Shown here one piece after another: positions 4,500 through 56,047 of a DNA stretch of 64,000 bases. This stretch comes from Bifidobacterium breve DSM 20213 = JCM 1192 (lineage in GTDB: Bacteria; Actinomycetota; Actinomycetes; Actinomycetales; Bifidobacteriaceae). Every line of letters begins with the position of its first letter. Position 1 is the first letter of the stretch. Both the position numbers and the translations under genes were made by a program. Location of the stretch: the NCBI RefSeq assembly GCF_001025175.1, contig NZ_AP012324.1:124001-188000 (forward strand). The letters run 5' to 3'. The notes under the pieces were generated by a model that was given only the letters and a program-made list of their open reading frames with translations, was not told the origin of the DNA and made no database searches.

Positions 4500-4509
4500 C
4501 CCCCCCCCC
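4500..4509. repeat. Ten-C homopolymer tract upstream of ilvC
   Basis: Ten consecutive C residues lie about 200 bases upstream of the first ilvC start, directly beside an AT-rich stretch (ATAACTGAATATCG). Such tracts slip during replication, and here a length change could alter promoter spacing. It is not in a coding frame. Confidence 0.7.
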
Positions 4510-4715: not shown

Positions 4716-5768
4716 ATGGCAGCAACTATCTGGTACGAGAAGGACGCCGATCTGTCCGTGTTCGATGGCAAGAAGGTGGCCATCCTGGGCTACGGTTCTC
4801 AGGGTCATGCCCACGCGCTGAACCTGCGTGACTCCGGTGTCGACGTGGTTGTCGGCCTGCGTCCGTCCTCCAAGTCCGTCGAGTTCGCCAAGGAGCAGGG
4901 CCTTGAGGTCAAGCCGGTTGGCGAGGCTGTCGCTGAGGCTGACGTTGTTATGATCCTTCTGCCTGACCAGTACCAGGCCAAGGTCTACGAGGAAGAAGTT
5001 GAGCCGAACCTGAAGCCGGGCGCTGCTCTGGCCTTCGCTCACGGCTTCAACATCCACTACGGCTACATCAAGCCGTCTGAGGATCACCCGGTCTTCATGG
5101 TCGCTCCGAAGGGCCCGGGCCACATCGTTCGTCGTGAGTACGCCGCTGGCCGTGGCGTTCCGGTCGTCGTCGCTGTTGAGCAGGACCCGGACGGCAAGAC
5201 CTGGCCGCTGTGCCTGGCTTACGCCAAGGCTCTGGGCGCTCTGCGTGCAGGCGCCATCAAGACCACCTTCACTGAGGAGACCGAGACTGATCTGTTCGGT
5301 GAGCAGGACGTCCTCATGGGCGGCATCAACCACCTGTGCGACCTCGGCTTCGACGTGCTGACCGAGGCTGGCTACCAGCCGGAGATCGCCTACTTCGAGG
5401 TCTTCCACGAGCTGAAGATGCTGGTCGACCTGGCTAACGAGGGTGGCCTGAACAAGGCTCGTTGGTCCTGCTCTGACACCGCTCAGTACGGCGACTACAC
5501 CTCCACCGTCATCACCGACGAGACCAAGAAGCGCATGCAGTACCAGCTCAAGCGCATTCAGGACGGCTCCTTCGCCAAGGAGTTCATGGACGACCAGGCT
5601 GCTGGCGCCCCGAAGTTCAAGAAGCTGCAGGAAGAGTTCTCTCACCCGCACCTTGAGACTGTTGGCCCGAAGCTGCGCGCTATGTTCTCCTGGAACAACG
5701 CCGAGGCCAAGGACAAGGATGAGGCTGAGTCCTTCAACGGCAAGATCGCTCGTACCCAGGTTCAGTGA
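4716..5768 (+). CDS. ilvC: Ketol-acid reductoisomerase, first copy
   Basis: A 350-residue, class I (short) ketol-acid reductoisomerase. This cytoplasmic NADPH-dependent enzyme converts 2-acetolactate or 2-aceto-2-hydroxybutyrate to the dihydroxy acid in valine, leucine and isoleucine synthesis. The Rossmann motif [17 protein letters not shown] is near residue 26, followed by the phosphate-binding region GLRPSSKS. The KARI metal-binding region includes ETDLFGEQ (about 188-195) and the C-terminal domain includes the [10 protein letters not shown] segment. The start follows AAAGGAGCGCC. A second copy, roughly 80% identical by eye, follows 427 bases downstream. Codon use is strongly biased, as in highly expressed genes. 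Confidence 0.97.
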
Positions 5769-6005: not shown

Positions 6006-6195
6006 ATACGGCTGTCCATACTCCAATAGTGACCTAGCTCACGTTGTGGACTCCAGCGGGGCTGCGACGGCGTTCTCGGTAGGATTGATTTCGGTTTGAA
6101 GGACACAATCCTCGCAACACAGGACTTATCTGCACACCGTAGATACCCCGGCGCCCAGCGGCGCCACACCCCACTACTGAAAAGGAGTGCCAATA

Positions 6196-7248
6196 ATGGC
6201 AGCACAAATCTGGTATGAGAACGACGGCGATCTTTCCGTCCTCGAAGGCAAGAAAGTCGCAATCATCGGCTACGGCTCCCAGGGCCACGCCCACGCGCTG
6301 AACCTGCGCGATTCCAGTGTCGACGTGGTTGTCGGCCTGCGTCCGACCTCCAAGTCGGTTGATTTCGCCAAGGAGCAGGGCCTCGAGGTCAAGTCCGTGG
6401 CCGAGGCTTCCGCCGAAGCCGACGTGATTATGATTCTGGCCCCCGACCAGTACCAGCGCACCATCTGGGCCAACGACATCGAGCCCAACATCAAGCCGGG
6501 TGCCGCTGTCGCCTTCGCTCACGGCTTCAACATTCACTACGGCTACATCAAGCCCACCGAGGATCACCCGGTGTTCATGGTTGCCCCGAAGGGCCCGGGC
6601 CACATCGTTCGTCGTGAGTACGCTGCTGGCCGTGGCGTCCCGGTCGTCGTGGCCGTCGAGCAGGACCCGCGCGGTGACGGCTGGGCCCTGACCCTCGCCT
6701 ACGCCAAGGCCCTCGGTGCTCTGCGCGCCGGTGCCATTAAGACCACCTTCAAGGAAGAGACCGAGACCGATCTCTTCGGTGAGCAGAACGTGCTCATGGG
6801 TGGCGTGAACAAACTCGTCGAGATGGGCTTCGAGGTCCTCACCGACGCCGGCTACCAGCCGGAGATTGCCTACTTCGAGGTCTGCCACGAGCTCAAGATG
6901 CTCGTTGACCTGATGAACGAAGGTGGTCTGAACAAGGCTCGTTGGTCCTGCTCGGACACCGCCCAGTACGGCGACTACACCAACACCGTCATCAACGAGG
7001 ATTGCCGCAAGCGCATGGAATACCACCTGCAGCGCATCCAGGACGGCTCCTTCGCCAAGGAGTTCATCGATGACCAGGATGCCGGCGCCCCGCACTTCAA
7101 GGAACTGCAGGAGAAGTACTCCAACGAGCGTATCGAGACCGTCGGCCCGAAGCTGCGCGCCATGTTCTCCTGGAACAAGGACGGCGTCAAGGACGCCGAC
7201 GAGGCCAACTCCTTCACCGGCAAGATCGCCCGCGCCCAGGTACAGTGA
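6196..7248 (+). CDS. ilvC: Ketol-acid reductoisomerase, second copy
   Basis: A 350-residue paralogue of the preceding gene with the same domains: Rossmann [33 protein letters not shown] and [10 protein letters not shown]. Identity with copy one is highest in the cofactor-binding and metal-binding regions and lowest around residues 85-95 and 220-270. The ATG at 6196 follows AAAGGAGTGCC, matching the context of the first copy; the GTG at 6187 is inside the ribosome-binding site and is not a likely start. Terminators flank it on both sides, so it should be expressed separately from copy one. Both copies look intact. Confidence 0.97.
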
Positions 7249-10662: not shown

Positions 10663-11015
10663 GCCCGGTGGCGGTAATGCCGTCGATTGCTCGGCAGCGG
10701 GAATCTGCTTCGCGCTGCGTGACGTGTCGAAAGCGGCGGTGAGGAAATTCGCCGACATGGGGTGTGTTGTACATATTGACATCGTTTGCATAATAGCATG
10801 GGACAATTCGCTGTTGATTCCCGATGGCGGGGTCCTGGCCTCTGCCGTTCCCCTTTGAATAGATGGTAATGCATATGCATGCAATACGTAGATCCCCCCG
10901 TATGGGGGGTAAATGTTTTCGACACGCCGGCGTATAGTGTCAACATATTCAACGCATTTCCCCTTTTGCTATGCGGGAAGAGAACCCATACCCCCTTAAT
11001 TAGAGGGCATGCGGG

Positions 11016-11045
11016 TTGAAATAATGACAACCTTTGTAGTATGAT
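11016..11045 (+). promoter_or_regulatory. Putative promoter of the sortase-pilus operon
   Basis: TTGAAA (11016-11021) and TATGAT (11040-11045) are separated by 18 bases in an AT-rich island. The pilus tip gene starts 235 bases further on, leaving a long leader. Confidence 0.45.
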
Positions 11046-11074
11046 GTTGTGCACACGAGAGAAGTGATGCACGT

Positions 11075-11116
11075 CGAAGTCGACCAGTGGTAAGTGGTTG
11101 TTTGGAGTCGACTTCG
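11075..11116. promoter_or_regulatory. Perfect 10-bp inverted repeat in the pilus leader
   Basis: CGAAGTCGAC (11075-11084) faces GTCGACTTCG (11107-11116) across 22 bases. It lies downstream of the putative promoter, inside the untranslated leader of the pilus operon. It could be a repressor site or an RNA hairpin. Confidence 0.5.
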
Positions 11117-11279
11117 GGGAGGCCAAAAGCCAACGTGTGCAAAACCGATTTCGCTAATGAAGTGGGCATATTCCGCAAAGCTGCGTGCTCGCTCCACGAC
11201 CCGTGAGCATAACGAGCGCGCTGTAGCGATACGCCGATATCGACGCGTTAGACGACGGTTCGCCGGAGACGAGGAAAGC

Positions 11280-14200
11280 ATGATGATAGCGAGAAGTTTC
11301 GGGGGGGGGGGGCGAAATTCAAGGCTGCCGCCGCTGCCCTGCTTGCCGCTGCCGTGCTGGTGACGTCAACTGGCTCACTCGCATTTTCCAATAACAAACT
11401 TGCCTATGCCGCCGATCTGAGCGACGGCGCATTATGCACTCCGACCAGCCAGTCGATGGGCACTGAAGCAAATCCCGCAACTGAGAGGGATTCCGGCGTT
11501 GCCACTTGGGTTGGCGGCGATATGTATGTCGGTAAGAAGTCCGACAACCTGACCAATGCTGACGGTCCTGATGCTTCATATTCCGCAGAAGCCGAAGGCT
11601 TGACTGTGGTCAACGGCAAGCTCATGCTGCATCCTCAGAAGAATTCGTGGAACGGCCAGGGCTTTCGTTTCGGCGTTGCCGGCTTCGGTACGCAGTATCG
11701 TCCCGCCGAAGGCAGCACCGCATTGGTAGTTGGCGGCAATACCGGAACCGTAATGGATAGTGCCACTTCCACCGCTGCTGTGAAAGCGTGGAATAAGCCT
11801 GGTTTTATTGATGGACATTCGCACGTCGGCTCACTCTCCGGTAGCCAGTCGGATGTATGGGACAGGGGCGGCACGTCGTCGATTGGCAGCTATAACGGTG
11901 CTTCCGTCAACTGGCAGAAGGACAAGTCCGGGAATACTCAGAACCAAGACGCCGGCAATCTGACCAAAGTTTCAGTCAAGGCTACCGATGGCGGTGCCGC
12001 CACTGACAAAGATTTTTCGAAGGATACGTTCTATCAAGGGTATGTGGTCGACGATATCGTTAGCCCGCTGGCCAAGCAAAATAAAACCGGTACAGTGAGT
12101 TCAAGCATCTCCACGTTGTCTGAGCTCCCTCGCCATAAGTACAACTATTACAAGGAAGGCACCAACGCCGCTAGCGGCATATCTTACACTTTCAAATACG
12201 ACTACACCACCAAGTACGGTACCGGCCGCGGCATTGCTCCCACAACGTCGTACACCAATCGCGAAAAGCTCATCACGTTCACCGGCACGAACAATGCCAG
12301 CATGGAGGTATTCAATCTCGATGCCAGCATGCTCAGCGACACCGATGAGAATGGCACCCTCTACCGTGGCGTAGGTTTCGCCTTTACGAACATCGCCGAC
12401 ACTGCATCTGTCGTAATCAATGTGACCGGCAACGCCAGTAATATCTCGTTCCACAACGGTTGGCAGTTCTGGTGGAACGGTGCGGAAATCTCCGATGGCT
12501 ACTCCAACTACAACAACACCGACGAGTTGAAGAAGAAGTCGGCTGCATACGACAAAGCCTCCCAGAAGATTCTATGGAACTTCAGCAATACCGATAACCT
12601 CACCATCTACGGTGGCGTGGCCAATGAGGACGGTACGAACACCAATGCCGATAAAATTACCCAGGATGATGCCGCCGCCGCGATGATGGGCAGCATTATC
12701 GTCAGGGGCAACTTCGAATCGCATGTTTCCACCAACGGCCGTGTGTACACGGGTGGCGACTTCTCCATGTACAACCCGTACAAGGCATGGACGTTCAATC
12801 AAGCCGGTGCGAACGATGGTGATTCCGCCTCTGTGCTCGACATGGATCAGGAGCGTCACAACTTCCCGTGGAACGGTTCGTACACCGAGTCCTGTTCCGC
12901 TATCGCGTGGCAGAAGGCCGATGAAAGCGGCACCCTGCTCGGTGGCACGACGTGGGCTGTGTACGGTAAGTACGATGATGCCGCAAGCGGAAAGAACGCA
13001 CTGCTTACCGTGCAGGATAACGCGTTCTACGACAAGGACTCTGCCGATGGCCGGTTCACTGTGGAAGGTCTGAAGCCCAACGCAACCTACTACATCAAGG
13101 AAGTCTCCGCCGGCAACGATTACCAGCTGAATACGAACGTCTATTACGTAGCGACTGGGGACTCATCGGCAACGCCGGTCAATGTCACGCAATCGGTGAC
13201 AAAGACGGACGGTGCTTATACGTACGGCAGCGCCGACATGACCGATGGCAAGATCGTCAACAAAAAGAACGGCCATGAGGTTTCTTGGTCGAAGGTCGAT
13301 GCCGACACTAACAAGGAGCTTGCTGGCTCTGAGTGGCAGATTCAGCAGGTGAAAGATGGCGCGGCCACTAAGAGCTGGAACGTCACAGACAACACCAGCA
13401 AAGCAACCGGCGTAACGGTCAATCCGACCTCAGCCACGTTGGATTCTACCAATGGGTGGAAGACCGATTTGACCGCAGCCGTCGATCCGAAGGATGCCTT
13501 GCAAGAGGTTGCATGGACGTTCACCGATAAAGATGGCAATGCTGTCGATTCGTCCACTGTTGCGGTATTGACCCGTACGGGTAATCTGAAAACCACCGTC
13601 ACCGGTATCAGCAGCATTGATACCACTGTGTATGTGAAGGCATGCTCGGTCTCCAATCCTGAGGTGTGCAGCGCCCTGGTCACCATCAAGGTGAAAGCTA
13701 TGAGCGTCAAGGATTTCACCGTCAAGGATTCCTCGAACCGGACTGTTGAGAACAATTCCACCATCACCGCTGCTGCAGTGGATAGCACGCTGACGTTCAC
13801 CGCTTCCTCCACTCCGGCTGTCCCGATTACTTGGGAGTCGAGCAACAAGAGCGTGGCAACGGTTACTTCCAGCGGCGAGAACGGTCAGAAAGCAACCGTG
13901 ACGATGACGGGATTCGGCTCTGCGGTCATCACCGCGAAGGCCGGCGACAAGAAGGTTTCGTTCACGGTCAAGGTGCCGTCTACCACGGTGTACTTCAAGA
14001 AGTCGTTGATGAATTGGTCGAAGTACTACGTGTACTACAACGCTGGCAACAATAACTGGAAGTTCGTGGAGATGAGCCAGAGCTGCGGTGATTATGTGTA
14101 TGCCATATTGCCGAAGCAGTCGCCTGGTACGGAATTTTTGTTCCACGGTGACGATGAAAACACGAGCACCAACAAGTGGTACCAGGGGTCGAATAAGAGC

Positions 14201-15862
14201 GATTTCAAGTTCACGGGCAACGAAGTGCAAGTCGTGAACCTGTATAACGATTCACAGGTCTCCACCGCTCCGACCGGCTGCCCTGCATCTGCCGCAGCTG
14301 CTGCCCAGTCGAATGATGCGGCGGTGCTCAACGAGAACGCGACGCCCGCCGATGACCCGCAGCCCAGTGATGCTGACGGTGTTGCCGAAAACGCTATTGA
14401 CGATGGTGCAAAGGCCATTTCCTGCACGGCAGCCGACGGCGAGAACGGTCGGCCCGGCGTGAAGTGCGATATGGACACCGCGGCCGGCAAATTCAAGGTC
14501 GGTGGTCTGGATGCCGGCACGTACTGGCTCCATGAGACCACGGCTCCGGACGGATACACGATCAATAAGACCTTGTACCAATTCACGATTGATGCCAATG
14601 GCAACGTCACGTGGAACGGCGGTTGGGCCAGCGGCGAGGCGACTGGCGCCATCGATGAAAAGCTGAAGCCCGGTGACAACAACGCAATCTCGGACACCCC
14701 TACCGAAGTGATCTGGAACAAGGTCGACACCAAGGGCGGCAAACTTGCCGGTTCCCAGTGGAAGATCGTTGGTCCAAGCCCTGCAACGGACGTGTACTGC
14801 GTGGCCGACAACGTGACGGTTGATGCCAATGGCGCCACCACGCCGGCAGGCATCGAGTTCACAGGCTGCACTGGCGAAAAGCTGTCCGATGCCGCGAACA
14901 CCGCAGACGAGGCCGGCGTCATCACGGTCAGGGGGCTGCCGGTCGGCACGTACACGCTAACCGAGACTAAGGCTCCAGACGGCTACGTGGCAACAACCAC
15001 GGTCTACACGCTTACCATCTCTGACACCGAAGCTTCCACCGTTGTGGCTCAGACCGCGACCGATAGGCCCACGACCCGTTCTGGCGGCAATCGCGAAGCT
15101 GCGGCCAATGTCCCCAACGCTTCGGCTCCGGTGAACATCCAAATCCCGGTAAAGAAGAGCGTGAAATACACGTCGTGGCCAAAGGACAGCAACGGCAACT
15201 ACGTCAACTTCAACTTCAAGATTGAAGCGACCAAGTCGACTGTGGACGCGAACCCCGCCGCGCCGATGCCTGCCGAATGCAGTAGCAGCGACGCGACCAA
15301 GAATGACTGCACCATCTCCTTGGCTCCGAAGTCTGACGCTGATGATCTGTCCAACGTCATAGCCAAGTTCGGCAAGATGACGTTCACCGACGCGAACCTC
15401 GCGGCGGCAGCTGGCGACGCCAGCGACTACGCCAAGACCTACACCTACAAGATCACCGAGATTGTGCCAGATTCCGCCGACGCGGTGGAAAACCTGCGCT
15501 ACTCGAAGGCGGAGTACCAAGTCGTAGTCACGCTCAAGCAAGCCAAGGATTCCAGCGGAAAGCTGTCCGGCTTGTCCGTCTCCGCCACGATGACACGCAT
15601 CAAGGATGACTCCGGCAATGCCGAAGCTGGCGGCGGAAAGGTGATCGGCACATGGTCATCAACGTCCACCGGCAGCAGCGCCGGAACTGCCGTCGAAGCA
15701 ACCTTCGTGAACACCAAGGTGCTCACCGGCCTGCCCACCACGGGCGCCGACTGGACCGGACGCCTAGTGCTTCTGGTCGGCGACGGATTCATACTTGCTG
15801 GCGTTCTCATCGCCGGCGGATATCAACTGGCCAAACGTCGACGGGAGGAGGACTCCGACTGA
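11280..15862 (+). CDS. Sortase-pilus tip/adhesin subunit, frameshifted at a poly-G tract (phase OFF)
   Basis: Large LPXTG surface protein of about 1527 residues when in frame. The start ATG (11280, after GAGGAAAGC) is followed by MMIARSF and then a run of 12 G. With 12 G the frame ends at a stop by 11363. With 13 or 10 G it runs into KFKAAAAALLAAAVLVTS, a classical signal peptide ending AYA before ADLSDG. The downstream frame is then open to 15862. The N-terminal third looks like a choice-of-anchor-A adhesin domain, followed by SpaA/Cna-B isopeptide domains with E-box segments such as GTYWLHETTAPDGY and GTYTLTETKAPDGY. There are also Ig-like modules and a C-terminal LPTTG, hydrophobic helix and RRREE tail. 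The major pilin and sortase genes follow. Confidence 0.88.
11301..11312 (+). repeat. Poly-G (12 G) slipped-strand phase-variation tract
   Basis: Twelve consecutive G residues lie eight codons into the pilus tip gene, before the hydrophobic core of the signal peptide. The upstream and downstream frames differ by one base, so adding one G or losing two restores the full protein. Confidence 0.92.
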
Positions 15863-15966
15863 TTTTTCTCCCTAGGCCACTCGATTGGCCGCCTACCAAC
15901 ACTCATAACTGAATAACCAATATTCAACACAATCTTCTTCTCCATTTCAGAGAAAGGAAAAGAGAA

Positions 15967-17802
15967 ATGAACACCATATTCAAGAGGGTGATCTCCGGAG
16001 CCGCCGCTCTGGGCATCGCCGTCAGCGGTCTAGCCATAGGCGTCTCCACCGCGTATGCTGCGGATCCGGCCACCGGCAGCATCACCATCAACAAGTCAGA
16101 CGCTGGTCAGGTGGATCACAGCTTCGATGGCTGGCACCTGGCATCGTTGACCAACGTCACCAAGGATAGTACTAACAAGATCAACGGCTTCCTCATCGAT
16201 ACCGATGACAATATGGTCAGAACCATTGTTGCCGCGATGACTAGCGATCAAAAGGTTGCATACGAGAAAGACGCCAACTACTACAGCACCGACAACGCCG
16301 TCGCCAACCCGATGGGGTACTTGGTCGAGAAGGTATTTAAGGATAAATCTGGCAAGGCGCTGAGCGAGCTGACCAGCCCGTGGGGCGGCGATAGCTCCAC
16401 GCTGCGTGTGTTCGCCAAGTCGCTGTCCAAGGAACTTGCCAAGGTCGGTGCTCCCGCTGCCGATAAGACCGGTGACAGCGCACTGAAGACCGGTGAGAAC
16501 AAGGAACTCAAACAGGGCCTGTGGTTCCTCAAGGATGTCACGACCACGGATGACACCAAGGGTACCAACTCCATCCCGATCATCACGCCGACCACCTTCG
16601 ATGGCGCCGACAGCTGGGGCACGGTGACGCTGAAGAACACCACCCCGACCATCGACAAGAAGCTGGTTGATTCCAAGGACGACGGCACCTACAAGCCGAA
16701 CACTCAGCCGGATTACGCAGTTGGCGATGATGTCTACTATGAGCTGACCTCCACCGTGCCGGTCTACACCGGCTACGACATCGATCCGACGATGAAGGAC
16801 GCAACCAAGACCCGTATCTTCAAGATCAATGACACCGCCAGCAAGGCGCTGACCGTGTCCGCCGGCACCGTCATCGAATCTGTCAAGCTGACTCCTGCTC
16901 AGGGTACGGCCGTCACTCTGGTCAAGGACAAGGACTACACCGTTACCGTCGCTGGCTATGGCGATGTGAACACTCCTGACACCGATGCCTACAAGGGCGG
17001 ACACGTGACCACTATCGACCTTGGTAAGTACGTCAACAAGGCCAAGGGCTCTAAGTCCGCTACTGACGGCATCCTCGAAGGCGCCACCGTCACCGTGATC
17101 GTCAAGGCTAAGCTCAACAAGGATGCGCTGATTTCCGAGCCCGGCAATCTGCAGAAGAACCCGAACAAGGTCGACCTCGAATACTCCAACCACCCGGAAG
17201 AAGTGAACCACGCCCATAAGGTTCCTGGCCCGGAAGTGCCCGTGTATGCCTATAAGTTCGACATCTTGAAGACCGATAAGGCTGGTACCACTAAGCTGCC
17301 CGGCGCTAAGTTCACGATCAAGGCAGTCTCCGGTACCAGCAAGCACGACGGCAAGTACCTCGGTTCTTATGGCAAGGATGGCTGGAGCTACCTCGATAGC
17401 GAGCCGGCGGTCACTGATACCGATGGTGTGTTCACCACTGGCAAAGACGGTAAGATCAACGTCTCCGGCCTCGATGCCGGCACCTACGAGGTCCATGAGA
17501 TTGCACCGCCGGACGGCTACACCGCGATTAGTCTGCCGAAGTTCCAGTTCACCATCACGCCGACCGTCGGCGATGACGCCGGATGGAAGACCATCACCGT
17601 CGTGGCGCTGAGCCTCGCGAAGGGCGCCGACGAGCGTGCCTCGCTGTCCCAGGGCGGCAAGACGCTGAACATCTGGAACGCCAAGAACATCACCGAGCTG
17701 CCGAAGACCGGTGGCGCTGGTCTGGCCATGATTGTGGCCGTCGGCGCACTGTTCATCGCGGCCTCCGGTATCTTCGCCCTCCGCGCTCGCCGCAAGGCCT
17801 GA
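15967..17802 (+). CDS. Major pilin of the sortase-dependent pilus (FimA/SpaA-like)
   Basis: A 611-residue secreted backbone pilin. The signal peptide covers residues 1-31 (KRVISGAAALGIAVSGLAIG, then STAYA before ADPATG). Isopeptide-bond D1/D2-type domains fill roughly residues 35-440 and a Cna-B/SpaA domain lies at about 440-560 (FDILKTDKAGTTKLPGAKFTIKA, with the E-box GTYEVHEIAPPDGY). The sorting signal is LPKTG (578-582) plus a hydrophobic helix and RARRKA. I could not place a classical WxxxVxVYPK pilin motif; the VPVYAYKFD segment is the nearest. The ATG follows AGAAAGGAAAAGAGAA. Subunits should be joined by the sortase C encoded next. The gene is intact, unlike the tip gene upstream. Confidence 0.9.
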   Translation: MNTIFKRVISGAAALGIAVSGLAIGVSTAYAADPATGSITINKSDAGQVDHSFDGWHLASLTNVTKDSTNKINGFLIDTDDNMVRTIVAAMTSDQKVAYEKDANYYSTDNAVANPMGYLVEKVFKDKSGKALSELTSPWGGDSSTLRVFAKSLSKELAKVGAPAADKTGDSALKTGENKELKQGLWFLKDVTTTDDTKGTNSIPIITPTTFDGADSWGTVTLKNTTPTIDKKLVDSKDDGTYKPNTQPDYAVGDDVYYELTSTVPVYTGYDIDPTMKDATKTRIFKINDTASKALTVSAGTVIESVKLTPAQGTAVTLVKDKDYTVTVAGYGDVNTPDTDAYKGGHVTTIDLGKYVNKAKGSKSATDGILEGATVTVIVKAKLNKDALISEPGNLQKNPNKVDLEYSNHPEEVNHAHKVPGPEVPVYAYKFDILKTDKAGTTKLPGAKFTIKAVSGTSKHDGKYLGSYGKDGWSYLDSEPAVTDTDGVFTTGKDGKINVSGLDAGTYEVHEIAPPDGYTAISLPKFQFTITPTVGDDAGWKTITVVALSLAKGADERASLSQGGKTLNIWNAKNITELPKTGGAGLAMIVAVGALFIAASGIFALRARRKA

Positions 17803-17823
17803 GCGGACACGCCTGGATAGCTA

Positions 17824-17873
17824 AGGAACGGCGGCCAGCGCACCGCACTTACCCCTCGCAAACCGCCGTTCCT
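17824..17873 (+). terminator. Stem-loop between major pilin and sortase
   Basis: AGGAACGGCGG (17824-17834) and CCGCCGTTCCT (17863-17873) form a perfect 11-bp stem with a 28-base loop and no strong T-tract. It probably lowers read-through into the sortase gene so that more pilin than sortase is made. Confidence 0.6.
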
Positions 17874-18058
17874 GCTCCGTCTCCGGCCGCATCGTCTTGT
17901 TCCCGATCGATGCGCCCGGAGACTTTTTCCATATTCCTTTATTTTTGCTGATTCTGGAGAACCGAATGATGCAAACAATTATCATGAAGTCCCGTATCCG
18001 CAGGGTTTTCTTAGCTCTTGGGGTAGTGTCGTTTATTGAGCGGAGATGAGTCCATCCA

Positions 18059-19018
18059 ATGCGAAGCAGCACCGGAGCAAAACAAAGTGGTACGCGCACA
18101 CAGTCGCGCGTGTTTACTGTGCTGTCGGTGCTGTTTTTGCTGATCGGGTTTGCCATCATCACCACGCCGTTCGTCATGCGCGCCATCAGCGAATACCAGC
18201 AGAACGCCACCGTGCAGCAGACGCAGCGCGAGGTGGATGGCTGGCCGTACCCACAGGCGGAGAACCAGCTCAAAACCGCCCGCGAGTACAACAAGAAACT
18301 CGTGGCTGGCGGCCAGGCCGCCATCGGCGAGGTCAAAGATCCTTTTGCCAGCAATGCCGGCCAGTCCACCACTTCCGGCGCGGATGATTCGATGGCCGCC
18401 AAAGATCAAGAATATCAGAGTCTGCTCGACGCCGGCCAAGGCGTGATGGGCTCCATCCGCATTCCTAAAATCGACGTCAACCTGCCCATATACCACGGCA
18501 CCAGCGAAGATGCGCTCGCCGTGGGCGCGGGACACCTTTATGGCACTTCATTGCCGGTCGGCGGCAAATCCACACACTCTGTAATCACCGGCCATCGCGG
18601 TTTGCCGAACTCGTTGCTGTTCACTCGCCTTGATGAGATGAAGAAGGGTGATTCCTTCTACATCGAGGTCATGGGCAAGACACTCGGCTACAAGGTCGAT
18701 CGCATTACCGTGATCAAGCCCGACGATTCCAGCAAACTGCGCATCACCAAAGGCGAGGATCGCGCAACCCTCATGACCTGTACGCCTTATGGTGTCAATT
18801 CTCATCGCCTACTGGTCTCCGGTGTGCGTGCCGAAATCCCGGAGGAAGTGCCTGACCCGGACGATGTGCATGGCATCAACACCACATGGCTGGCACTGGG
18901 GGCCATAGTGTTTTTGGCCGTGCTGTTCGCTTTCATCGTCATATTGATGCGGCGTAAGCAAAAGCGCGATCGGGAATTTGCCGGCCTCGCCCGGCACGCC
19001 GCACGTCCGACAAAATAA
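18059..19018 (+). CDS. Class C pilus-polymerising sortase
   Basis: A 319-residue membrane transpeptidase that links pilin subunits through LPXTG signals. An N-terminal membrane segment (residues about 20-42) and a C-terminal one (about 275-298) frame the catalytic domain, as in class C sortases. The catalytic residues are His179 (TGHRGLPN) and Cys241 (TLMTCTPYG), with Arg a few residues later in SHRLLVSG. The segment PFASNAGQ with nearby Asp/Pro residues may be the lid loop. The gene follows the major pilin with a stem-loop between them. The start is uncertain by a few codons, because an ATG lies 13 bases upstream in another frame. It is clearly related to the orphan sortase at 54824-56047. 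Confidence 0.93.
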   Translation: MRSSTGAKQSGTRTQSRVFTVLSVLFLLIGFAIITTPFVMRAISEYQQNATVQQTQREVDGWPYPQAENQLKTAREYNKKLVAGGQAAIGEVKDPFASNAGQSTTSGADDSMAAKDQEYQSLLDAGQGVMGSIRIPKIDVNLPIYHGTSEDALAVGAGHLYGTSLPVGGKSTHSVITGHRGLPNSLLFTRLDEMKKGDSFYIEVMGKTLGYKVDRITVIKPDDSSKLRITKGEDRATLMTCTPYGVNSHRLLVSGVRAEIPEEVPDPDDVHGINTTWLALGAIVFLAVLFAFIVILMRRKQKRDREFAGLARHAARPTK

Positions 19019-19108
19019 GCGCCCCGCGCGTCTGCGATTCCGCGTTGGGAATATGAACGGTTTCGGGTGCCGGACTATTCAAAAAGCGGCCAGATTGTCG
19101 TAACTCGA

Positions 19109-19298
19109 TTTCGAGGGGCTGATTTGGCGTGTTCCGGAGGTCTACTTCCGTTTCGAGGGGCTGGTGCCAAAGTAGACACAGCTGCAAAACGGCAGAATGA
19201 CGTTGGTGCAAAACCGTTTCTACTTCCGTTTCAACGGATGAGGAGCCCCTTGAAGTGGAAGTAGACCTCTGGCAAACGCGAAATCAGCCCCTCGAAGT
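19109..19298. repeat. 190-bp palindromic intergenic element, copy 1
   Basis: The left arm starts TTTCGAGGGGCTGATTT and continues to GGTCTACTTCCGTTTCGAGG. The right arm mirrors it (AGCCCCTTGAAGTGGAAGTAGACC ... AAATCAGCCCCTCGAA). The element therefore has two nested hairpin arms with CGAGGGGCT boxes at both the outer and inner ends. The same layout and length recur at 59419-59608. It fills the gap between the sortase gene and malQ. I see no ORF in it. Confidence 0.8.
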
Positions 19299-19321
19299 TG
19301 ATTTAGGCAGTCTTTCTGCCA

Positions 19322-21538
19322 TCAGGAAGCGTTTCGGCGCTTCTCGCGGCGCATTACGGCGGACAGAGACTGCACGCGCGGCAGATTGAAGACCTCGTTG
19401 GTGTGCACCACGTGCCCTTCGCCATCGGCCAGCGGCACTCGCCAGTTAGAATACTCGCTGGACGTGCCCGGCTGATTCTGCGAGCGGCATTCGCCCACGC
19501 CGTCCACCAGCGCAGCCTGCAACAACAGCGACGGCGTATCAGTGAGCATGGCGTGCATGGCTTCAACGATCTCCTGCACATGACCTTCCGCGTCATCGGC
19601 CACAGCCTGCGTGATGTAACCGCCCTCCACCAGTCGGTTCATCATCGCGGTGCGCTCGGCCATGGCCGAAGCGGCAAACACCTCCACCGGCTCGCTGAGC
19701 AAATGCAGCTCCTCGCGCAGTTTCACATGCTCGAAGTTCAGATAGCCGGCGGTTGGCGGCAGATCGTGTGTGGTGACCGATGCCAGTGCCTGCTTGCGGT
19801 ACTCCTGCGGCGTGCGGTAGGGATCGCCGGCGTTCGGCGAATCGTCCACACGGTTGAACCACTCCACATCGGTGCCAAGCACGCCATGATCGGCCAGAAT
19901 GCGGCGCACATAATCCGGCACGGTGCCCAAATCCTCGCCGATCACCATGCCGCCGGCGCGCGTGGCCTCGATGGCCAGTACGCCGAGCATCGCCTCGTGG
20001 TTGTACATCACGTAGGCGCCATTGCGGGCGCCAAGTCCCTGCGGAATCCACCACAGGCGGAACAGTCCCAGCACGTGATCGATACGCACCGCGCCCGCAT
20101 GCTCATACATGGAATGCACCATTTCGCGGTACACCTGGTAGCCGGTGGCTTCCAGATAACGCGGGTTGAACGGTGGCTGGCCCCAATCCTGGCCCTGCTG
20201 GTTGTAGAAGTCCGGCGGGCAGCCGACCGTGACGCCACCGGAGGCGAAACGCTCCGGGTTGGCCCACGCGTCAGCGCCGAGGCCGTGCACGCCAACGGCC
20301 ATATCCTGCATAAGGCCAAGTGTCATGCCATGATCCAAGGCCGTGTGCTGAGCGTCGTTCACCTGCTCGGCGGCGATCCACTGCAGCCAGCGGTTGAACT
20401 CGAACAGATCATGATGGTCCTTGACCAGCGTCTGCACGGTCGGGTCGTCGATGGTCTTCTCGAAGAACCAGCGGTTCTCGCCCCAAGGTGCGCCCCACAC
20501 CTCGAAGCACAGGCACCAGGTGGCGAAGGAATTGAGGTCCGGGCCGGCCGTGGCCTTGAAATACTCGAACTCCAGCTCGCGCTTGTTGTTGCGGTCCGCA
20601 TCGAAGATCAGGCGCAGGGCCGGGCGCTTGGCCTCCCACGCCGCGTTGATATCCATCGGCGTGGATTCATCATTGCGTGCGGCCACCGAGGCATGCAGTG
20701 CATCCACCTGGGCGCGCACGTCATCCGGCAGGGTGGCGTATTCGGGAATGTCTTGTGGACGAATGTACGTCACGTTGAGGAACCGGCGCGATTCCGGCAG
20801 ATACGGCGAAGGCTCGAGCGGCGGAATCGGCGCACCGGCGTGAATCGGATTGATGAGCATGAAGTCGGCCTTGGACTTCTCGGCGGCATTCGCCAAAAGA
20901 CGCTTCAGATCGCCGTAGTCGCCGATGCCCCAGGAATCATGGGAGCGTACCGAATACATTTGCGTCATCCAGCCCCAGCGCTGATGCTCCTCGACCGCCT
21001 TCGGCACGGCGATGCGTGCGGGGGCGGCGATGATGGTCGCCTTGCCTCCGCGCCCGTCAACCGTGACGGTCAGCGTGTGGTAACCCATCGGCAGGTCGGG
21101 GGCGATGGCGAGATCCGGCTGGCCGGAGTTGAGATTCGGCAGTAGGGAGAAGCGGTCGAATGCGGTGCCGTCTTCCAGCATGATGGCGGCGGTGATGTCC
21201 GCGTCCGACGGGCAATTCAGGGTCAGGCTTGTCGGCTTGCCGGTGATGGCCACGATGGTGGGCGGTAGCAAACGTTTGCTGTTTTCGGCCTCAAGTTCGG
21301 TCATGGAACGTTTTATGGCCTCGTCGCTGGAGGCATCCACATCGAGGGCCTTGAGCACGGCGACCAATGCGTCATCGCTGATTTCGGTGTAGGTGCCGAG
21401 CTGGTCGATGAACGAGGTCGCAAGCCCGGATGCTTTGGCCAATTTGATCAGCGGTCGAGCAAGGCGTTCGGCGCTTTCCGTTCGCTGTGTGGTGTCTGGT
21501 GCATTGGTTGCCGCTTCATTGCTGCGCGCCTCGGTCAT
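19322..21538 (-). CDS. malQ: 4-alpha-glucanotransferase (amylomaltase, GH77)
   Basis: A 738-residue cytoplasmic amylomaltase that transfers maltosyl units between maltodextrins and releases glucose. It is the actinobacterial long form, with a ~170-residue N-terminal extension containing a small beta domain before the GH77 barrel. GH77 features are present: SHDSWGIGDYGDL, the nucleophile region AVRIDHVLGLFRLWWIP, the acid/base in GMVIGEDLGTVPDYVR, and THDLPPTAGY. The ATG follows CAAGGAGCTATT; an upstream in-frame ATG lacks a ribosome-binding site. A LacI-type operator lies about 130 bases upstream, consistent with MalR control along with malE and apuB. Confidence 0.95.
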   Translation of the reverse strand: MTEARSNEAATNAPDTTQRTESAERLARPLIKLAKASGLATSFIDQLGTYTEISDDALVAVLKALDVDASSDEAIKRSMTELEAENSKRLLPPTIVAITGKPTSLTLNCPSDADITAAIMLEDGTAFDRFSLLPNLNSGQPDLAIAPDLPMGYHTLTVTVDGRGGKATIIAAPARIAVPKAVEEHQRWGWMTQMYSVRSHDSWGIGDYGDLKRLLANAAEKSKADFMLINPIHAGAPIPPLEPSPYLPESRRFLNVTYIRPQDIPEYATLPDDVRAQVDALHASVAARNDESTPMDINAAWEAKRPALRLIFDADRNNKRELEFEYFKATAGPDLNSFATWCLCFEVWGAPWGENRWFFEKTIDDPTVQTLVKDHHDLFEFNRWLQWIAAEQVNDAQHTALDHGMTLGLMQDMAVGVHGLGADAWANPERFASGGVTVGCPPDFYNQQGQDWGQPPFNPRYLEATGYQVYREMVHSMYEHAGAVRIDHVLGLFRLWWIPQGLGARNGAYVMYNHEAMLGVLAIEATRAGGMVIGEDLGTVPDYVRRILADHGVLGTDVEWFNRVDDSPNAGDPYRTPQEYRKQALASVTTHDLPPTAGYLNFEHVKLREELHLLSEPVEVFAASAMAERTAMMNRLVEGGYITQAVADDAEGHVQEIVEAMHAMLTDTPSLLLQAALVDGVGECRSQNQPGTSSEYSNWRVPLADGEGHVVHTNEVFNLPRVQSLSAVMRREKRRNAS

Positions 21539-40193: not shown

Positions 40194-40210
40194 GACGTGC
40201 GAAAACCGAT

Positions 40211-40290
40211 TCGTAAGGGGTGCTTTAGGCTGAGACGGTATGTGCCGAACCCTTCGAACCTGTGAGCTAACACTCGCGTAGGGAATGCGA
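40211..40290 (+). ncRNA. TPP riboswitch (THI element)
   Basis: The aptamer core is clear: GGGGTGC, GGCTGAGA, then GAACCCTTCGAACCTG and GCGTAGGGAA, in the fixed order of the thiamine pyrophosphate riboswitch. P1 is formed by TCGTA (40211-40215) and TGCGA (40286-40290). It should shut down the downstream gene when thiamine pyrophosphate is abundant. The gene it controls is only a stump. Confidence 0.92.
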
Positions 40291-40347
40291 CGGTTGAACT
40301 CCTCTGTTCGGCTCGGCATCCCATATGCGCGTTGAGAGAGGAAGCGT

Positions 40348-54823: not shown

Positions 54824-56047
54824 TTATACGGATGGTGGCAACTCGCCTACTGGCTTCTTGACTGGCTCGGCAAGCACTCTCAACGTATCGTTGGCGCTTT
54901 CTCCGTCGCGGCGATGCCAGGGCCAGAAAGCGGTGTGATGCATGATGCGTGCGGGCTTGTGCCGCCGCAGTAGCCAGATGATGAACAGTCCAGCCAGCAG
55001 TATGCCGACACCGACCGCGATGCCAATGGTCCGCCCGTCGTGCACGTCGCGTGGTTCGGGGGCAGGCACAGGAATCGAGACACGGTGCCCGGAAATCAAC
55101 AGTCGGTGCGTGTTCACACCGTACGGCGTACAGGTCATCAGCGTGACGCGGTCCTCGCCCGGCGCGATGCGCAACTTTGAGGTGTCGTCCGGCAGAATCA
55201 CTGAGATGTTATCCACCTTGTATCCCAAGGTCTCGCCCATGACTTCGATATAGAAGAAGTCGCCCTTCTTCACCTCGTCCAGGCGGGTGAACATCATGGC
55301 CTCCACCAGACCGCGGTGTCCGGTGATTACCGAATGAGTGGACTTGCCGCCCACGGGAAGCGATGTGCCGTAGAGATGCCCGGCGCCAGAGGCAAGTGCC
55401 TCCTCGGAGGTGCCGTGGTAAATCGGCAGGTTGATGGATTGCTTGGGGACTTTGATGGTGCCCATCACGCCGTTGCCGGCATCCAGTAGCGATTGGTATT
55501 CCTTGTCTTTCTTGGAGGCTGAGTCCTCGCCGCTGGCGCGTGACCCACCCTGCGCGGCCGAGAACGGATCGACCGCCTCGCCCAGTACGGGCTGACCGGA
55601 ATCGGCAAGCTTCTTGTTGTAGGCGCGTGCGACTTTCAGCTTGTCCTCTGCCTGCGGGTAGGGCCATCCGGCCACTTGCTTGGCACTGGTAGCAGCAGTG
55701 GCGGCCAGCTCCTGGCTGGATTGGAATTGCAGAGCCAGCGGGAAACAGGCTGCGCCGATGGCGGCGATGAGCAGAAGGATGGTGATGATGCGCATCGCCA
55801 GCAGATTGCGCTGGAGGCGGCGGCGTTCGGCTGCCAGATCGGAGACGTCGACGACCTCGTTGAACGGATCTTGGGTGAAAGTGTTGCTGGCTGCTGCCGC
55901 ATCGGCTGCTGCTGAATTGTTTGTTGTTGTATCGACTGCTGCTGTATCGACTGATGCGTCGGCTATTGCTGCGGCGGATGCGTCGGCGGGTGCATTAGCG
56001 CGGGAACGGGCATGCTTGCTCTTCGGGCGTCTATGCAGAAAAGCCAT
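54824..56047 (-). CDS. Orphan class C sortase
   Basis: A 407-residue sortase. The N-terminal ~85 residues are cytoplasmic (basic, then Ala/Asp/Thr-rich), followed by a membrane segment (LLAMRIITILLLIAAIGAACFP). The catalytic domain has TGHRGLVEAMMF (His) and TLMTCTPYGVNTHRLLISGHRV (Cys and Arg), and a C-terminal membrane helix (TIGIAVGVGILLAGLFIIWLL). The catalytic core is very close to the pilus sortase at 18059-19018, including GWPYPQAE, INLPIYHGTSEEAL and GTSLPVGGKSTHSVI. No pilin or LPXTG gene is adjacent. It may serve pilins encoded elsewhere or be the remainder of a lost pilus locus. Confidence 0.92.
   Translation of the reverse strand: MAFLHRRPKSKHARSRANAPADASAAAIADASVDTAAVDTTTNNSAAADAAAASNTFTQDPFNEVVDVSDLAAERRRLQRNLLAMRIITILLLIAAIGAACFPLALQFQSSQELAATAATSAKQVAGWPYPQAEDKLKVARAYNKKLADSGQPVLGEAVDPFSAAQGGSRASGEDSASKKDKEYQSLLDAGNGVMGTIKVPKQSINLPIYHGTSEEALASGAGHLYGTSLPVGGKSTHSVITGHRGLVEAMMFTRLDEVKKGDFFYIEVMGETLGYKVDNISVILPDDTSKLRIAPGEDRVTLMTCTPYGVNTHRLLISGHRVSIPVPAPEPRDVHDGRTIGIAVGVGILLAGLFIIWLLRRHKPARIMHHTAFWPWHRRDGESANDTLRVLAEPVKKPVGELPPSV

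Follow-up and report, generated by a model that had tools for sequence, protein, structure and literature searches.

A G12 Tract in the Signal Peptide of a Bifidobacterium breve Pilus Adhesin Is Consistent with a Known Phase Switch in Its OFF State

Introduction

Why does the first gene of a sortase-pilus cluster in Bifidobacterium breve DSM 20213 (= JCM 1192) begin in one reading frame and continue in another, and what would a cell in this state lack? The question is raised by a run of twelve G residues at the front of a large adhesin gene in the window, by which we mean the whole 64,000-nucleotide stretch analyzed here (positions 124001 to 188000 of a 2,269,415-base genome in one contig). 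An earlier interpretation made from the DNA letters (the sequence-only reading) described the run as a phase switch that takes one subunit away from an otherwise complete pilus.

Poly-G switching of sortase pili was said in that reading to be known in B. breve, and the literature agrees. In strain UCC2003, Penno 2022 (PMC9187656) described an ATG at 164585, a G11 tract at 164606-164616, and an adhesin frame that extends to 169169. The available part of Bottacini 2014 (PMC4007704) reports that most B. breve strains carry a frameshift in the opening gene of pil1 and pil3, within a run of 10 to 11 Gs, compared to the 12 found here. Tracts at the start of such clusters, inside the first gene or close to it, are also described, in the available portions, for other species: a G9 frameshift in fimB (BBPR_1822) of Bifidobacterium bifidum PRL2010 (Foroni 2011, PMC3231923), tracts of G11 and G13 in B. 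bifidum R0071 (PMC10757668), and G tracts in Bifidobacterium dentium (PMC12104195). The questions for the present genome are where exactly the tract falls, which subunit it controls, and how much of the pilus would disappear along with it.

Results

The pilus cluster lies on the forward strand (+) of the window. A Shine-Dalgarno-like GAGGA (11271-11275) precedes an ATG at 11280, which is followed by a second ATG at 11283, and the putative slippage tract of twelve Gs (11301-11312) begins 21 nt from the first of these, a feature recognized by its sequence, by comparison with shuffles, and by a position common to relatives. Translation from ATG 11280 yields 27 residues and stops at TGA 11361-11363, giving as the OFF product of the sequenced form a short frame (11280-11363) that is the counterpart of bbr_0113a. 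The adhesin frame, according to the open reading frame list, is open from before the tract through position 15862. Translation and hydropathy of this frame place the rest of a signal peptide at 11315-11410, in the order KFK, a hydrophobic core made of a run of Ala, Leu, and Val (11324-11362), and AYA, after which the peptide is presumably cleaved. Because K-F-K come after the tract, the Gs fall in the charged n-region, 5' of the hydrophobic core. This agrees with the sequence-only reading, in which twelve Gs part the start codon and ribosome-binding site from the adhesin, the upstream frame ends at 11363, the frame 3' of the tract holds the hydrophobic core, and the start and adhesin frames differ by one G; its placement of the tract within the signal peptide can now be narrowed to the n-region.

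A start 3' of the tract was also considered. The first one listed is GTG 11354, which has no Shine-Dalgarno-like sequence before it. The best 15-residue Kyte-Doolittle mean is 2.2 across the 40 residues that directly follow the tract and 0.6 across the opening 40 residues of the GTG product. We rejected GTG 11354 as the true start because the Shine-Dalgarno sequence and nearly all of the hydrophobic core are missing.

The interrupted frame encodes a FimB/SpaC-like adhesin of about 1,500 codons (11315-15862), assigned by profile matches and an LPTTG motif, that retains all of its domains and its anchor: a choice-of-anchor A/ice-binding-like N-terminal region, four SpaA stretches, and the LPTTG anchor at 15731-15745. 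SpaA scored 133 bits, and TIGR04215 (33.7 bits; cutoff, 29) and pAdhesive_15 (24.7; cutoff, 23.8) were just over their cutoffs. Searching 11420-12900 alone returned no Pfam match, and an AlphaFold2 model of the N-terminal adhesive region built with five sequences had a mean pLDDT of 41, too poor for use. Directly in row follow two intact genes, as had been claimed. The first encodes a major pilin of 611 amino acids (15967-17802), recognized by backbone-domain profiles and motifs; it has its own ribosome-binding site-like GAAAGGAAAAGAGAA and contains LPKTG, a pilin-motif-like PTIDK, and an E-box-like YEVHEIAPPDGY, with SpaA, GramPos_pilinBB, and RrgB_K2N_iso_D2 over their cutoffs and NF033902 (80.9 bits) under its cutoff of 95. 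By simple patterns, the pilin motif is present in the major pilin and absent from the adhesin. The second encodes a class C (pilus) sortase of 319 amino acids (18059-19018; NF033745, 283 bits; cutoff, 160).

LPXTG proteins with SpaA-type domains beside a class C sortase identify a sortase-assembled pilus of the Spa/Fim type known from Gram-positive bacteria, from which this cluster differs by the homopolymer switch at its front. Reading frames, domains, and anchor all point to the large first-gene LPXTG adhesin as the switched subunit, as the sequence-only reading had it; we regard this protein as a putative tip or minor pilin, presumably located at the tip. The arrangement is that of bbr_0113-0115 in UCC2003, where a first-gene adhesin is likewise split by a G tract 21 nt after its ATG and is followed on the 3' side by a major pilin and a sortase. 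The span from ATG to stop is nearly equal (4583 bases here versus 4585), and tract lengths are within one (12 versus the 11 annotated there). Homology to bbr_0113 rests on these coordinates and this gene order, by which we assign the window cluster to pil1 (the bbr_0113-0115 type). As in the switch defined by Penno 2022, the tract is in the first gene and separates the start from the frame with the secretion signal and LPXTG motif; the B. breve entries in Table 1 of that paper (PMC9187656) do not include the tract position of the window strain.

Chance seldom gives a tract of this length: of 100 dinucleotide-shuffled versions of the window, one contained a run of G12 or C12 (mean, 0.01). Shorter runs are less exceptional: the 8 overlapping matches to G or C runs of at least 8, versus a shuffle mean of 2.9, were equaled or exceeded in 5 of 100 shuffles. 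The 2.27-Mb genome contains 11 distinct G or C runs of at least 10, two of them at least 12 long, and inspection of the open reading frames around all 11 found a Shine-Dalgarno start parted from a signal peptide only at the pilus tract.

With the N-terminal region of the adhesin as the query, 39 of 112 genomes of the genus gave a match, the window's own included. Eight of the 58 loci collected (L029 to L086) were dropped, five judged to be copies by equal match figures and three being repeat fetches of the same place, which left 50 distinct loci. A scan of each that reached 400 nt upstream and 50 nt downstream of the GTG 11354 position (22,329 bases in total) found 11 G runs of at least 8 and no C run of that length, and a coding control of 19,287 bases had neither. 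Within 130 nt upstream, the 50 loci had nine runs of length 5, three of length 10, two of length 9, and one each of lengths 6, 8, and 12, with none of 7; a coding control of equal size had a single run of 5.

Tracts of at least 8 Gs occupied the n-region in 8 of the 50 loci. Six of these, in the window (12 Gs), L032 (10), L034 (9), L065 (10), L066 (9), and L069 (8), begin inside a 6-nt span, and at all six the ATG with the Shine-Dalgarno sequence is out of the adhesin frame (OFF). The other two, L049 and L086 (10 each), are in frame (ON). This in-frame-start test is crude, because six loci with no tract (L036, L044, L051, L078, L079, and L085) also failed it. At the locus from B. simiiventris (L062), a long open frame matches residues 17 to 1496 with 57% identity, and there is no tract of 7 or more.

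Three other relatives have tracts at a second site, about 190 to 240 nt 5' of the start: L043 (11 Gs), L057 (9), and L058 (8). In these three, a TGTTTCA...GATTTTCA-type sequence follows 21, 22, and 41 nt after the first base of the tract, respectively, and a motif search found it in none of the other loci among the 50. The upstream tracts may represent a transcriptional switch. Runs farther out are present at -454 in L051 and at -539 in L068.

A separate observation from these upstream regions concerns GCAAACGT, of which there are 23 copies in 21,643 bases of upstream sequence, at 20 of the 50 related loci (the window's not among them), and none in 18,967 bases of coding control. We take GCAAACGT to resemble half of a LacI-family operator, and its presence upstream of the relatives hints at sugar-linked control of pili.

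Upstream of the switched gene in the window, a consensus scan predicted a promoter-like TTGAAA-18-TATGAT (11016-11045) in a fitting position. This was the one sigma-70-like site in 10800-19400, and the same scan found none between the cluster genes; because the count is below the shuffle mean of 4.0, it lends a single promoter for the cluster little weight. Inverted repeats are present in the 5'-untranslated region (11046-11145 and 11075-11116), and the predicted fold of 11050-11330 gained nothing over shuffled sequence (z = -0.37; 62 of 200 shuffles equaled or surpassed it).

Between parts of the SpaA-like region, the adhesin carries an insert (13982-14290, about residues 877 to 980 in the 1,502-amino-acid open reading frame) for which the predicted structure weakly suggests a carbohydrate-binding-module-like fold. 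The AlphaFold2 model had a pLDDT of 71.6, and the best Foldseek match was CBM56 (E = 0.0094). VIA Z reached 6.4, with CBM56, CBM25, CBM26, and Sas6 among the best rows, a range (below 8) that may reflect merely a common arrangement. The insert had no Pfam CBM match at E up to 10, and in comparisons with PDB sequences the best E value was 0.23, none convincing.

Discussion

The reading we favor, and hold to be very probable, is that the pil1 cluster of this strain was caught with a replication-slippage switch in the OFF position and that, through polarity, such a cell would be bald for this pilus. DNA polymerase slippage at the G tract would alter the number of Gs. For lengths in one residue class modulo three, the start codon and n-region would be read on into the remaining signal peptide and the adhesin (ON); for the other two classes, translation would stop before about 30 codons had passed (OFF). 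With the switch OFF, mRNA left untranslated past the stop would most likely be subject to polarity, so that pilin and sortase would also fall and the cell would be left without the pilus. ON and OFF cells would coexist, with the host selecting between them.

Much of this model is carried over from UCC2003, which we expect the window strain to resemble in behavior. In UCC2003 cultures, 59% of tracts were G12, 37% were G11, and 3% were the frame-joining G10, which increased to about 30% in the faeces of mice; transcription was strongly reduced 3' of the bbr_0113a stop, an effect ascribed to polarity, although by the paper's own account direct evidence is lacking for the pilus proteins (PMC9187656). 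A strain with the frames joined had pilus-like structures, unlike its parent, and adhered to HT29 cells at >20% versus about 7% (PMC9187656). By analogy, polarity most likely acts at the window locus as well.

An error in sequencing or assembly, with the gene in frame in most cells, would account for the broken frame in another way, and we think it unlikely. Homopolymer lengths are error-prone, Penno 2022 warns of assembly errors at such tracts, and the UCC2003 reference itself has a length different from the commonest (PMC9187656). Against an artifact, relatives share the tract and its position, with similar lengths, and the tract recurs in published B. breve genomes (PMC9187656 and, in its available part, PMC4007704). 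A mistake of one G would alter the state assigned to this genome, not the switch. A length fixed in all strains, which would have spoken against the sequence-only reading, is not seen at species level: the published lengths at this locus are 11, 11, 11, 10, 9, and 9 in six B. breve strains (PMC9187656, Table 1), and the length is 12 here.

The sequence-only reading went on to propose that only the adhesin is switched, the second and third genes being expressed at any number of Gs, so that an OFF cell would build a shaft without it. Both downstream genes are intact, and the ribosome-binding site-like sequence before the pilin gene would suit such an arrangement. Foroni 2011 (PMC3231923), as far as its available text goes, reports for PRL2010 that RT-PCR gave no product spanning the sortase and pilin genes and that the sortase was induced differently; a separate sortase promoter is therefore possible. 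The drop in UCC2003 transcripts past the early stop, with pilus-like structures in the in-frame strain only, is difficult to reconcile with this proposal (PMC9187656), and the lack of promoter-like sites between the genes in the scan of 10800-19400 weakly points the same way. We judge a switch confined to the tip improbable. Of the earlier interpretation, the poly-G phase switch on the first-gene adhesin is supported, and the loss of the adhesin subunit alone is not.

Long G runs can slip during transcription. If RNA polymerase slipped at G12, each cell would make some in-frame mRNA, and the gene would be dimmed rather than off. Transcriptional slippage was the explanation suggested for the G9 tract in PRL2010 fimB, to judge from the available text of Foroni 2011 (PMC3231923). 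In UCC2003, the lengths vary in the DNA itself, the in-frame length becomes commoner in mice, and the parent has no visible pili (PMC9187656). We judge this reading improbable, although a low leak may occur. A decaying pseudogene is scarcely credible: the start frame is broken, but about 1,500 further codons remain open with all domains and the anchor retained, and other species share the tract position with open downstream frames.

The window places a real and already known B. breve switch in another genome and confirms the published system; its OFF state is probably better seen as loss of the whole pilus than of the tip alone. What is new is modest: a length of 12, an n-region position for the tract that relatives in the genus share, and the upstream tracts as a lead. 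Glycines added in the n-region should be harmless, which may explain why this site recurs, as length could drift in steps of three with no harm to export. Genes broken in this way should not be called pseudogenes by annotators.

A broader scheme would have homopolymers switching these pili at two sites, translationally in the n-region and perhaps transcriptionally 190 to 240 nt upstream, with a carbohydrate-binding-module-like insert in the switched tip of the window cluster, such that the number of Gs toggles binding to glycans such as starch. We regard this combination as doubtful.

Other homopolymers and pilus genes in the genome

Several other homopolymers deserve mention. C10 tracts at genome positions 1295643 (L013) and 1866036 (L017) lie about 60 and 35 nt 5' of the starts of a transporter-like and an oxidoreductase-like gene, respectively, and are candidates for promoter-tract variation. 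A C13 run at 225021-225033 (L007) and a G9 run 19 nt ahead of it form an intergenic inverted repeat, and a further tract (1772107) is positioned past the end of a transporter gene. In the window, a C10 run (4500-4509) is upstream of one member of a tandem pair of ketol-acid reductoisomerase (ilvC-like) genes, at 4716-5768 and 6187-7248, names that were given by reading.

An Rfam search over the window, in which there is no tRNA, returned a TPP riboswitch at 40206-40302 (+; 59.3 bits; cutoff, 54.3) and no other match. A second class C sortase in the window (54824-56047, -; 265.7 bits at genome 179082-179780) had no recognized pilin gene among the neighboring genes inspected. A second pilin pair, of 1,238 and 515 amino acids, at genome 385745-391216 (L087) has no tract in the signal peptide and no class C sortase match nearby, and is probably pil2. 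At genome 2212867-2214938 (L088), a fimbrial-looking protein of 348 amino acids adjoins a transposase-like fragment and a class C sortase fragment that covers profile positions 167 to 220, perhaps the remnant of pil3 (the bbr_1889 type).
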